A stretch of DNA of 41,372 bases from Candidatus Omnitrophota bacterium. GTDB taxonomy: Bacteria > Omnitrophota > Gorgyraeia > Zapsychrales > Fredricksoniimonadaceae. The notes under the pieces were generated by a model. It searched no databases and was not told where the DNA came from. It saw only the letters and a program-made list of their open reading frames with translations. The stretch spans positions 69,528 to 110,899 of the forward strand of contig CAJARJ010000021.1 of assembly GCA_903944345.1 (NCBI GenBank), read 5' to 3'. The number at the start of each line of letters is the position of its first letter. Position 1 is the first letter of the stretch. Positions 320 through 6,035 of this stretch are shown here, one piece after another. The position numbers were made by a program, and so were the translations under genes.

Positions 320-514
320 ATGCTTATAGTCTTGGTGTTTTGTGTTCTGGCCATGTGTGTCCTTGCAATGTCCGCGGGCATTCTGGCCGGAGGCAGGCCT
401 TTGCGCAAAAGGTGCGCCGAGCGGCCGGATCAGGAATGTGTTTGCGGACAGGAACAATGCGCCCAAGTGCGGCAGCGCTCCGGGCAGGATGTGGATGAGA
501 AGGAAACAAGATGA
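320..514 (+). CDS. nqrM: NqrM-like Na+-NQR maturation protein (DUF539-like)
   Basis: A small protein of 64 residues with one N-terminal membrane helix (MLIVLVFCVLAMCVLAMSAGIL) followed by GGRPLRKRC and a Cys-containing tail with CVCGQEQC. This is the layout of NqrM, which supplies iron to the Cys cage between NqrD and NqrE during assembly of the Na+-NQR complex. The family has a similar length, a GR-(K/R)P motif after the helix, and paired cysteines in the tail. I chose ATG at 320; an in-frame TTG at 308 would overlap nqrF. The stop codon overlaps the next gene's start (ATGA at 511-514), so the GAF-ANTAR gene is probably translationally coupled to the nqr operon. Position directly after nqrF strongly supports the call. 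Confidence 0.82.
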   Translation: MLIVLVFCVLAMCVLAMSAGILAGGRPLRKRCAERPDQECVCGQEQCAQVRQRSGQDVDEKETR

Positions 515-1737
515 CTAAAAAGACATTAAAACAGCTTTCACCTGAAGATGAATTGGAAGTTTTGCGTAAAGTGATGGATATTACCACAGCGGAAGTTGAG
601 CTGGATGGGGTTTTGTCTGAAATTATCCGCACCATGTCAGATATGGTGGCCTGCGACTCGGTCATGATTTATCTTCTTGACGATGCGCACCGCAACCTGG
701 TTTTGCGGGCATCCAAAACGCCCCATCAGAAGGAGTTGGGTCAGTTGACACTCAAGATCGGAGAAGGTCTTACCGGCTGGGCGGCAAAAAATGCTAAAAC
801 CCTGGCGATCAGGGAGGAGGCTTACAAGGATCCGCGTTTTCGTGCATTTGATATTCTGCCCGAGGATCGCTACGAGGCTTTTCTGGCTTTGCCGGTGGTC
901 TTCAAGGGTAAGCCGATAGGGGTTATCAATTTGCAGCACAAGAAGCCGCACGAATATTCTTCCAATGTGATTGGTCTCCTGGAAATGATTGCCCGCCAGC
1001 TGGGAGGGGTTATCGAGCATGCCCGGCTGTTTTCTGAAACTAGGAACAAAGCTTTGCAGTTTGATAGTCTGGTTAAAGTGAGCCAAAGCATTACTTCCGA
1101 GAAATATCTGGATGAAATTCTCAGTCTTATTGTTGTGGTTACTGCGGAGATGCTGAATTCCAAGATTTGTTCAGTTATGCTTCTGGATCCCAAGGGGCTT
1201 GAGCTTGTTATCCGGGCCACCCAGAGCCTGTCGGAAGAATATCGTCGAAAGCCGAATCTCAAAGTCGGCTCCAGCCTGATCGGTGAGGCGGTCAGGAACA
1301 AAAAACCGCTTACTGTCGAGAATGTGCAGTCAGAGGAAAGATATTATTATCGCGAACTGGCCATTAAGGAAGGCTTGACCAGCATGATTGCCGTACCTAT
1401 GATTGTGCGCGAGAAAGTGGTCGGGGTGCTCAATGTTTACACCAAAGCGCAACACAGTTTTTCCCGTGCGGAGCAGGATGTTTTGCAAATGGTCGCTAAT
1501 CAGGCGGCGGTTGCGGTAGAGAATACCAAGCTGATGGAAGAGGCTTTCAAGGCCAAGGAAGCGCTGGAAACAAGAAAGCTGGTGGAGCGCGCCAAGGGGG
1601 CACTGATGAGTCTGCATCATCTTTCCGAAGATCAGGCTTACCGTATGATCAATAAAAAGAGTATGGATACCTGCAAGAGCATGAAAGAGATCGCAGAGTC
1701 CATTTTGTTAATGGCTGATTTACAAAAAGGGCTGTAG
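511..1737 (+). CDS. GAF-GAF-ANTAR RNA-binding antiterminator
   Basis: 408 residues. Residues about 20-165 and 185-335 are two GAF domains (for example LTLKIGEGLTGWAAKN and IGVINLQHKKPHEYSS in the first, LKVGSSLIGEAVRNKKPL and VVGVLNVYT in the second). From about residue 351 the C-terminus is an ANTAR domain: ALETRKLVERAKGALM, then SEDQAYRMINKKS and a final helix KEIAESILLMAD. ANTAR domains bind paired RNA hairpins with hexanucleotide loops and prevent transcription termination. GAF domains usually sense small ligands, or redox or gas signals; the ligand here is unknown. The gene overlaps nqrM by 4 bases. Directly downstream lies a leader with two such hairpins and a terminator, in front of glutamine synthetase, which is the obvious target. 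There is no response-regulator receiver domain, so control is probably by direct ligand binding rather than phosphorylation. Confidence 0.9.
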   Translation: MTKKTLKQLSPEDELEVLRKVMDITTAEVELDGVLSEIIRTMSDMVACDSVMIYLLDDAHRNLVLRASKTPHQKELGQLTLKIGEGLTGWAAKNAKTLAIREEAYKDPRFRAFDILPEDRYEAFLALPVVFKGKPIGVINLQHKKPHEYSSNVIGLLEMIARQLGGVIEHARLFSETRNKALQFDSLVKVSQSITSEKYLDEILSLIVVVTAEMLNSKICSVMLLDPKGLELVIRATQSLSEEYRRKPNLKVGSSLIGEAVRNKKPLTVENVQSEERYYYRELAIKEGLTSMIAVPMIVREKVVGVLNVYTKAQHSFSRAEQDVLQMVANQAAVAVENTKLMEEAFKAKEALETRKLVERAKGALMSLHHLSEDQAYRMINKKSMDTCKSMKEIAESILLMADLQKGL

Positions 1738-1770: not shown

Positions 1771-1799
1771 TTGACAAAACAGGCTCGGCTGCTTATAAT
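1771..1799 (+). promoter_or_regulatory. Consensus sigma-70 promoter for the glnN leader
   Basis: TTGACA at 1771-1776 and TATAAT at 1794-1799, separated by exactly 17 bases. Both hexamers match consensus perfectly. Transcription would start near 1806, so the ANTAR-type hairpin begins almost at the 5' end of the RNA. Such a strong constitutive-looking promoter suits control by attenuation rather than by activation. Confidence 0.88.
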
Positions 1800-1809
1800 C
1801 GAAAAAATG

Positions 1810-1857
1810 AGGCGCAATGATGTAGCCTGTTACAAGACCGAGGGCATTGAAGTCCTC
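1810..1857 (+). promoter_or_regulatory. ANTAR-type double-hairpin antiterminator element
   Basis: Hairpin 1 pairs 1810-1815 (AGGCGC) with 1822-1828, with A1824 bulged and a G-U pair, around the hexaloop AATGAT (1816-1821). Hairpin 2 pairs GAGGGC (1840-1845) with GTCCTC (1852-1857) through 6 consecutive base pairs around the hexaloop ATTGAA (1846-1851). Both loops are exactly six nucleotides with A at position 1 and G at position 4, the signature of known ANTAR target RNAs, and the hairpins are 11 nt apart. The 3' arm of hairpin 2 is also the 5' arm of the terminator at 1850-1894, so the two structures exclude each other. Confidence 0.85.
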
Positions 1858-1894
1858 TTTTTGGAAACATTCTTTCCGAAAAGAGGACTTTTTT
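1850..1894 (+). terminator. Intrinsic terminator in the glnN leader (attenuator)
   Basis: Bases 1850-1861 (AAGTCCTCTTTT) pair perfectly with 1879-1890 (AAAAGAGGACTT). The helix continues through T1862-G1878 and GGAAA/TTTCC to a 5-nt loop at 1868-1872, and a T-run reaches 1894. It lies between a consensus promoter and the glnN start, so it must be a conditional terminator. Its 5' arm overlaps hairpin 2 of the ANTAR element; protein binding there would block terminator formation and allow glnN expression. Confidence 0.88.
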
Positions 1895-1936
1895 CTGGAT
1901 ACGGCAGTATTTTTAATTAACCAGGAGGAGTGTATT

Positions 1937-4033
1937 ATGGCAAAGGCAGTCAAGAAAACACAAAGCGCGGTTGAAGCCATGTATGGCGCAAACGTGTTCA
2001 GCCTCAAGGTCATGCAAAAGGTTCTTTCTCCCAAAGCCTATGCATCTCTGAGCAAAACAATTACCAACGGCGGAGCGCTGGATCCGGCGATTGCCGGTGA
2101 AGTGGCAGGCGCCATGAAAGATTGGGCCGTCTCCAAGGGGGCGACGCATTTTTGCCACTGGTTCCAGCCTTTGACCGGGACAACGGCCGAGAAGCACGAT
2201 TCTTTTATTTCTCCTGATGGTCAGGGTGGCGTCGTGATGGAGTTTTCTGCCAAGGAACTTATCCAGGGCGAACCGGATGCCTCTTCTTTTCCTTCAGGTG
2301 GATTGCGTGCCACTTTCGAAGCCCGTGGTTATACTGCCTGGGATCCGACCAGTCCTGCTTTTATTAAAGAAGGCGTGGATGGCGCGACATTGTGTATTCC
2401 TACCGTGTTCTGCGGTTATCATGGCGAGGCTCTGGATAAAAAGACGCCTCTCTTGCGTTCGATCGTGGCTTTGGCCAATCAGATGGAGCGTGCCGGCAAG
2501 TTGTTTGGCCTTAAGCCGGTGACCAAGCCTTACGCGACATTGGGACCGGAGCAGGAGTATTTCCTGATCGATAAATCTTTCTACGAACAGCGCCTAGATC
2601 TGGTGCAAACCGGGCGTACTCTGTTTGGTTCCAAACCGGCCCGGCATCAACAGATGGAAGATCATTATTTTGGAGCGATTCGTCCTCGGGTTCTCGCTTT
2701 TATGGAAGAGCTGGATCAGGCTATGTGGAAGCTGGGGGTTCCAGCCAAAACACGGCACAATGAGGTGGCTCCTGCCCAGTTTGAGATTGCTCCGATTTTC
2801 GAGCGTCTTAATCTTGCCGTGGATCATAATATGATGTGCATGGAAGCCATGAAGCAGATTGCCGACAAGCATGGTCTGGTTTGTTTGCTGCACGAAAAGC
2901 CGTTTGCCGGAGTGAATGGCTCGGGTAAGCATAATAACTGGTCTGTGGTTGGTGTTGATGGAAAAAACTGGCTGCATCCGGGAAATAATCCGCATGAGAA
3001 TGCCAAGTTCCTTTTTACTCTTTGTGCGGTTATCAAAGCGGTGGATGAGTACGCTGGCCTGTTGCGTGCCACGGTGGCCTCTCCCGGCAACGATCATCGT
3101 CTCGGGGCCAACGAAGCTCCTCCGGCGATCATTTCTATCTTTTTGGGCGATCAGCTGACTGACATTGTTGAGCAGCTGGAAAAAGGCGAGACCAAGAGTG
3201 CCAAGTCCGGTGGCACCATCGAAATTGGCGTGGATGTTCTGCCTGTTCTTCCGCGCGATGCTACCGATCGTAATCGCACGTCTCCTTTTGCCTTTACTGG
3301 AAACAAGTTCGAGTTCCGTGCTTTGGGCTCGAACATGAGCACTGCCGGAGCCAACGTGGCGTTAAACACCATTGTGGCCGAAGCCATAGATGAAATGTGT
3401 GCGCAGCTTGAAAGTGACATCAAGGCCAAGAAGGATTTTAACAAATCCTTGCAGGCGCTTTTGCAGTCGATCATCAAGAAGCACAAGCGGGTTATTTTTA
3501 ACGGCGATGGTTATACGCAGGAATGGCACAAGGAAGCAGAGCGTCGCGGCTTGCCGAATGCCAAGACTACCCCGGAAGCGCTGGAAGCTCTCAAGAGCGA
3601 AAAGTCGATCCGGCTTTTTGAAAAGCACAATGTTCTTTCCAAGAAAGAACTGCTCTCGCGTTATGAGATTTATATGCATAATTACCAGAGTGTTCTTGGC
3701 TATGAAACCGAGTGTGCCCGTACAATTGCAGCGACCCAGATTCTGCCCGCAGGTCTGGAGCATCAGGCAGCGTTGGCCGAAACCATCAAGGCAGTTGAAT
3801 CCGTGGGTGGTAAGGCTGCAGCGGCACGTGAGCAGTTGGCCGTGGTTTCCGGCCTGGTGGATGAATTGGCGGTTGGCATTAAGGCGTTGGAAGACGCTTC
3901 GGTTTGTCATTGCACCGACAAAATGAAAGATGCTATGCAGAAAACCCGCGCGGCGGCGGATCAGCTGGAGACTTTGGTTCCGGCAGACCTGTGGCCTTTG
4001 CCGAGCTACGCGGAAATGCTGTTTTTGTATTAA
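1937..4033 (+). CDS. glnN: Glutamine synthetase, type III
   Basis: 698 residues, the usual size of GSIII and far longer than GSI (about 470) or GSII. It makes glutamine from glutamate, ammonia and ATP in the cytoplasm. Recognisable family segments include THFCHWFQPLTGTTAEKHDSF, GLRATFEARGYTAWDPTSP, the metal/glutamate-binding HNEVAPAQFEIAP, the ATP-site GSGKHNNWS, GNDHRLGANEAPPAI and the C-terminal ETECARTIAATQILPAGLE. I start it at ATG 1937, which has a strong AGGAGG just upstream (1922-1929 region). The open frame extends back to 1847, but that part is leader RNA containing the attenuator. Expression is probably set by the ANTAR switch upstream, and transcription ends at the hairpin at 4051-4088. 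Confidence 0.96.
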   Translation: MAKAVKKTQSAVEAMYGANVFSLKVMQKVLSPKAYASLSKTITNGGALDPAIAGEVAGAMKDWAVSKGATHFCHWFQPLTGTTAEKHDSFISPDGQGGVVMEFSAKELIQGEPDASSFPSGGLRATFEARGYTAWDPTSPAFIKEGVDGATLCIPTVFCGYHGEALDKKTPLLRSIVALANQMERAGKLFGLKPVTKPYATLGPEQEYFLIDKSFYEQRLDLVQTGRTLFGSKPARHQQMEDHYFGAIRPRVLAFMEELDQAMWKLGVPAKTRHNEVAPAQFEIAPIFERLNLAVDHNMMCMEAMKQIADKHGLVCLLHEKPFAGVNGSGKHNNWSVVGVDGKNWLHPGNNPHENAKFLFTLCAVIKAVDEYAGLLRATVASPGNDHRLGANEAPPAIISIFLGDQLTDIVEQLEKGETKSAKSGGTIEIGVDVLPVLPRDATDRNRTSPFAFTGNKFEFRALGSNMSTAGANVALNTIVAEAIDEMCAQLESDIKAKKDFNKSLQALLQSIIKKHKRVIFNGDGYTQEWHKEAERRGLPNAKTTPEALEALKSEKSIRLFEKHNVLSKKELLSRYEIYMHNYQSVLGYETECARTIAATQILPAGLEHQAALAETIKAVESVGGKAAAAREQLAVVSGLVDELAVGIKALEDASVCHCTDKMKDAMQKTRAAADQLETLVPADLWPLPSYAEMLFLY

Positions 4034-5830: not shown

Positions 5831-5857
5831 AGGTTGCCTGGCTCGTCAAGATTTCGG

Positions 5858-5886
5858 TTGATTTTTCTGACCGCCAAAGATAGAAT
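5858..5886 (+). promoter_or_regulatory. Putative sigma-70 promoter for gltBD
   Basis: TTGATT at 5858-5863 and TAGAAT at 5881-5886 with a 17-base spacer, close to consensus, in the gap after nadE. It would give a start near 5893 and a leader of about 140 nt before gltB. Confidence 0.65.
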
Positions 5887-5892
5887 GCAAGA

Positions 5893-6035
5893 CTCTGTCA
5901 GCAATTATGTCCGGGTGCACATTGAGGTGCCGGTTTCATTCTCCGGCGGACGAAGTCCACATCCTGGTGTTTCTTGGTAGAAGAAATCCGGATCAAGCTG
6001 GAATATAACTAATAAGTAATATTGGAGTTCTGAAC
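5893..6035 (+). other. Structured gltB 5' leader of unknown type
   Basis: The stretch holds several possible hairpins: GCAC-ATTGAG-GTGC (5917-5930); GCCGG/CCGGC (5929-5933 with 5943-5947), which excludes the first; GGAC-GAA-GTCC at about 5948-5958; and TTTCTT/AAGAAA near 5970-5986. The first has an ANTAR-like hexaloop (A1, G4), but no second loop of that kind lies upstream and no U-run terminator is visible. I recognise no named riboswitch. No credible reading frame is present. Confidence 0.35.

Follow-up and report, generated by a model that had tools for sequence, protein, structure and literature searches.

The window, i.e. the whole stretch of 41,372 nucleotides of a Candidatus Omnitrophota genome analysed here, carries a gene encoding a GAF-GAF-ANTAR protein, a leader with a promoter, two hairpins (P1 and P2) and an intrinsic terminator, and glnN, which encodes a type III glutamine synthetase (Table 1). 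A ribosome-binding site (AGGAGG) lies shortly before the glnN start, and nadE, gltB and gltD follow this gene. The gltB leader (5831-6035) was also considered as an ANTAR unit and was not counted, since its hairpin (GGTGC-ACATTGAG-GTGCC) has an 8-nt loop and a T run is absent.

Table 1 Features of the glnN locus (window coordinates) and of the second leader in the source genome
Feature	Position	Strand	Basis or context
GAF-GAF-ANTAR regulator, 408 aa, presumed antiterminator	511..1737	+	Pfam
Sigma-70 promoter, TTGACA-N17-TATAAT	1771..1799	+	consensus match 12/12
P1 hairpin, AGGCGC-AATGAT-GT(A)GCCT	1810..1828	+	fold; hexaloop A1 G4, six pairs, one bulged A
P2 antiterminator hairpin (putative), GAGGGC-ATTGAA-GTCCTC	1840..1857	+	fold; hexaloop A1 G4
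Intrinsic terminator, 18 bp, loop CATTC	1850..1890	+	fold; 5' arm overlaps P2
glnN, type III glutamine synthetase (GSIII), 698 aa, presumed regulated gene	1937..4033	+	Pfam GSIII_N 3.3e-77
nif ANTAR-type leader	G000:C12:12961-13015 (L124:4962-5016)	minus	precedes nifH-nifI1-nifI2-nifD-nifK (nifH-P-II-P-II-nifD-nifK)

The regulator matches Pfam GAF (1.1e-41, two stretches) and ANTAR (5.5e-20); with 71.3 bits against a curated cut-off of 27.3, its ANTAR match belongs to the family PF03861. It is encoded by the one ANTAR gene found in the source genome (2.18 Mb, 22 contigs, 95.5% complete). The best ANTAR-domain structures retrieved for it were those of Rv1626 (1s8n), EutV (6wsh) and NasR (4akk). 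All five EutV residues that contact G4 or plug the loop (R142, K149, E160, Y164 and M172) are kept in the window protein and, among 60 homologues, the EutV contacts R142, K143, K149, E160 and M172 are invariant while position 164 is Y or H. Backbone contacts of EutV are replaced among the homologues (R168N/H, N173D, R175C, R177S); the window domain itself has R168N, N173D, R175C and R177S, with C and S/T near-invariant at the last two positions in the 60 homologues. The GAF domains are similar to those of PtsP (3ci6, 7e-21) and weakly to those of NifA, a likeness that, from knowledge of these families, suggests nitrogen or carbon as the signal.

In the leader, the promoter (-35 box at 1771-1776, -10 box at 1794-1799, 17-nt spacer) stands out from its surroundings, the runner-up within 12 kb matching 10 of 12 positions. 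The loops of P1 and P2 are both closed by a C-G pair, and the hairpins are separated by an 11-nt linker (1829-1839), inside the 5-12 nt range of eut genes (PMC3369931). The terminator arms span 1850-1867 and 1873-1890 and run into a T run at 1889-1894; because the P2 3' arm (1852-1857) lies inside the terminator 5' arm, P2 and the terminator are mutually exclusive. The promoter, the two A1/G4 hexaloops and the 18-bp terminator reusing the P2 3' arm are thus all present as the preliminary description had them, and the regulator does lie ahead of the promoter, its open reading frame ending 33 bases short of the -35 box. As far as its sequence tells, the window leader satisfies the features of the ANTAR-target antitermination family: it has two A1/G4 hexaloop hairpins, of which P1 is missing in some orthologues, and its second hairpin overlaps and excludes the terminator.

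Taken as a whole, the leader has a folding energy of -32.9 kcal/mol, compared with -19.1 +/- 2.9 in shuffled sequences (z -4.8), a difference mainly due to the terminator. By themselves, P1 and P2 give a z of -2.1, and equally good folds arose in 5 of 200 shuffles; since this only modestly beats shuffling, the case for a switch rests on comparative evidence. In constrained folds without protein, the terminator of the window leader is preferred over P2 by 8.9 kcal/mol, so that termination is its predicted default and a protein would be needed to hold P2; the cost of forcing P2 ranges from 0 to 7.4 kcal/mol in eleven other leaders. In the forced P2 state the upper terminator hairpin stays and the lower terminator pairs are gone.

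A second leader and distribution across the phylum

We built a covariance model, R1, from P2 and the terminator with a seed of 39 sequences including the window leader, whose own score in the source genome (55.5 bits) is therefore not independent. The sole other strong match in this genome (50.4 bits, E 6e-11) is the leader of the nifH-I1-I2-D-K operon, which was absent from the seed and sits on a different contig from the window. The third match scored 22 bits and is the first site read on its opposite strand. Ahead of the nifH leader of the source genome, no standard promoter was detected.

When the covariance search called for in the preliminary description was run on related leaders, R1 matches recurred in 50 of 55 related genomes, and an ANTAR gene was present in 48 of the 55. 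A scan of genome contigs with the ANTAR protein as query yielded 51 loci, most of them labelled Omnitrophota. In a survey of 193 genomes of the phylum, 60 had R1 matches and 141 an ANTAR gene; matches occurred in 54 of the 141 genomes with ANTAR and in 6 of the 52 without a detected ANTAR gene, some of these six being incomplete. Many of the matches in the phylum are no more than a few hundred bases away from the ANTAR gene.

To assign targets, the first reference gene at most 1.6 kb downstream of each of 157 distinct sites was recorded. The ammonium transporter gene amtB accounted for 69 sites, GSIII for 36 (one of them weak) and nifH for two, i.e. 107 of the 157 together; six further sites precede an ANTAR or ANTAR-like GAF gene and two a DUF2934-like small ORF. 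For the remaining 42 no reference protein matched, and inspection by eye placed nitrite reductase-like, carA, PAS-LuxR and porin-like genes among their targets. At loci L108, L109, L158, L186 and L145, P2-plus-terminator sites are followed by genes assigned by eye, from their translations, as nitrite reductase-like, PAS-LuxR, carA and ferredoxin/NrfD-like, which points to a nitrogen regulon of wider reach.

The arrangement of the loci varies. In one group GSIII lies directly 3' of the ANTAR gene, and the intergenic leader retains promoter, P2 core and overlapping terminator; at other loci, small ORFs and amtB-glnB intervene, bearing sites of their own that are at times in tandem. Tandem arrays, in which one leader holds two or three modules of P2 plus terminator, were seen at L026:7257-7420, L035:7318-7431, L043:1290-1393 and L128:301-421. 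At L018:7330-7545, a small ORF named by eye as DUF2934-like stands between the ANTAR gene and amtB and has its own P1-less leader. The description of regulator, target and output as side by side holds in the window, but the circuit is wider and takes in the nif operon and, across the phylum, mainly amtB-glnB and GSIII. Taken with the second match in the source genome, this recurrence strongly supports ANTAR-controlled antitermination as the predicted function of the window leader.

P2, P1 and the place of the second hexaloop

P2 was recognisable in all 14 GSIII leaders folded, and its core GGGC-ANNGNN-GTCC was found in every GSIII leader compared except that of L011, where the 5' arm reads CGGC and the inner three pairs alone can form. 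Pair 2 is seen as G-U, A-U and G-C. Pair 5 forms in 61% of cases against 54% expected from base composition, and pair 6 in 27% against 27%; since pairing past the fourth pair is at about the base-composition level, the covariation support comes mainly from pair 2. In the P2 sites that fail a strict reading, A1 is often replaced by G and G4 is kept, in agreement with the EutV structure, which shows contacts to G4 and none to A1 (PMC8934654).

P1 behaves differently. Among the 14 folded GSIII leaders, an A1-G4 P1 is present in that of the window and in L097, L003, L007, L008 and L009; in L052 it is poorly paired, and in L011 the loop is G1-G4. The hairpin of L002 and L005 has other loops, and L010, L012, L135 and L110 have no such hairpin, so that a purine1-G4 P1 is missing in six of the 14. 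The dual-hexaloop picture fits the window leader but is not conserved across orthologous GSIII leaders. Loss of the hexaloop from leaders that keep the terminator, taken beforehand as evidence against the switch, was seen for P1 in some GSIII leaders and not for P2. Compensatory changes were to be looked for in both stems; for P2 such support is limited mainly to pair 2, and pairing of the P1 stem is no evidence, since these stems were found by requiring pairing, and for P1 it is the bias in the loop bases that counts.

This bias was assessed in the 73 leaders whose promoter lies at least 30 nt before P2. A hexaloop hairpin stands between the start and P2 in 58 of them, 48 closed by C-G; positions 1 and 4 of the loop are A and G in 38 and G and G in 11. 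Upstream loops of 5 or 7 lack a bias of the A1-G4 type, and the class with loops of 8 would, by inference, largely consist of hexaloop hairpins opened by one pair. Across leaders, and as far as sequence comparison can tell, P2 is the constant hairpin and P1 the replaceable one.

The -10 box of about 30 leaders lies 13-22 nt before P2, which makes P2 the first hairpin of the transcript and leaves no room for P1. The apical loop of the terminator is an A1-G4 hexaloop in 14 of 30 such leaders and a G1-G4 one in three, compared with A1-G4 in three of 100 control terminators of the same loci. When ANTAR-type terminators were grouped by promoter distance, an A1-G4 apex was found in 14 of the 32 leaders with a short distance and in 10 of the 73 with a long one (Fisher tests, short versus control p 7e-8, short versus long p 0.002; because the leaders are related by descent, the evidence is weaker than these p values imply). 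The nifH leader of the source genome, whose terminator apex is the hexaloop GAC-AAAGTT-GTC, seems to be of this type. We give about even weight to the proposal that the second ANTAR hexaloop is movable across Omnitrophota, being placed before P2 as P1, at the terminator apex, or at neither where none was found. The leaders that lack P1 seem to be a variant not described before: a leader with P2 first and the second hexaloop inside the terminator was not found described in the accessible parts of the published ANTAR work. If the proposal is true, the hexaloop on which ANTAR acts would appear in the transcript later than the antiterminator hairpin, or ANTAR would use one hexaloop only, which is at odds with the published model in which the recruitment hairpin comes first.

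A different reading of the same leaders, which we consider possible and on balance unlikely, is that ANTAR works in this lineage through P2 as its one hexaloop, with P1 accessory or decaying. The constancy of P2 beside the patchy P1 of the GSIII leaders favours it, as do the leaders without room for P1 and the similar affinity of EutV for single hexaloops (Walshe 2022, PMC8934654). However, the 49 purine1-G4 loops among the 58 upstream hexaloops argue that P1 is under selection where room exists, the terminator apex supplies such a hexaloop in 17 of 30 P1-less leaders, and both hairpins are required for EutV antitermination (PMC3369931).

Far less probable is an ordinary terminator, or constitutive attenuator, with incidental hairpins and no ANTAR control. 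The strength of the terminator and the modest fold of P1 and P2 are what such an element would give, but it would leave the recurrence across the phylum at nitrogen genes and beside ANTAR genes, the conserved hexaloop bases, and the rarity of A1-G4 apical hexaloops in the control terminators without explanation. Least probable of all, and very remote, is another class of leader RNA (a PyrR site, a riboswitch, a glnA RNA or a leader peptide), for which the Rfam search of the leader returned a weak PyrR match (23.1 bits, where the cut-off is 54). Against it, no Rfam family reached its cut-off, and the conserved part is a hexaloop hairpin over a terminator and not a ligand-binding core.

Known ANTAR systems and the proposed mechanism

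In Geobacter, GnfK/GnfR provides an ANTAR-domain antiterminator for nitrogen-fixation and assimilation genes; it is a two-component response regulator, unlike the window regulator with its two GAF domains. The dual-hexaloop motif was defined by Ramesh 2012 (PMC3369931), who predicted its presence in several bacteria upstream of genes for P-II, ammonium transporter, nitrogenase and glutamine synthetase; a link between ANTAR and nitrogen genes, among them that for glutamine synthetase, had been predicted in other bacteria before. The predicted regulons of Desulfotomaculum and Pelobacter, in which ANTAR-type RNAs precede genes for P-II, ammonium transporter, nitrogenase, and glutamine or glutamate synthase, concern other lineages and came from a search that demanded the canonical dual hairpin (PMC3369931). 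The accessible text of that paper was not found to describe a GAF-GAF-ANTAR/GSIII unit, and a literature search, with most subscription papers outside its reach, found no work linking Omnitrophota and ANTAR.

The eutP leader of Enterococcus faecalis, target of EutV, shares with the window leader two A1/G4 hexaloop hairpins, a short linker and the overlap of P2 with the terminator (PMC3369931, PMC8934654), and the window ANTAR domain resembles EutV in its G4-contacting residues. The systems differ in the sensor, which is a REC domain with a partner kinase in EutV and GAF-GAF in the window protein, in the targets, here GSIII and nif, and in the absence of P1 from part of the phylum's leaders. 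NasR and the nasF leader of Klebsiella have in common with the window a single-protein sensor-ANTAR regulator, nitrogen assimilation and leader antitermination, and differ in the NIT nitrate sensor domain and the nitrate operon target (PMC3369931).

We consider it highly likely that bases 1800-1936 are a cis-regulatory leader working by ANTAR-dependent antitermination, and the switch is very probably thrown by the adjacent GAF-GAF-ANTAR regulator. As we infer the binding by this protein, the direction of the response and the signal, events would run as follows. By default, polymerase starting from the promoter would halt at the terminator. Once activated, probably by a nitrogen-status signal through its GAF domains, the protein would bind through its ANTAR domains the P1 hexaloop and then the P2 hexaloop on the nascent RNA. 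The closed P2 would withhold GUCCUC from GAGGAC and so block the lower eight pairs of the terminator beside the U tract, the upper hairpin still being possible, and polymerase would then transcribe through into glnN. The nifH-I1-I2-D-K operon would come under the same protein through the second leader.

The largely uncultured Omnitrophota would thereby gain a probable circuit for nitrogen control that takes in ammonium uptake, glutamine synthetase and nitrogen fixation and in which the regulator sits beside its own target. Why antitermination requires both hexaloops, and how much a single one can do, is the question left by Walshe 2022, who redefined one hexaloop as the ANTAR binding unit (PMC8934654). 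For this question, the leaders of the phylum, with P1, with a hexaloop at the terminator apex, or with neither, offer a natural data set.
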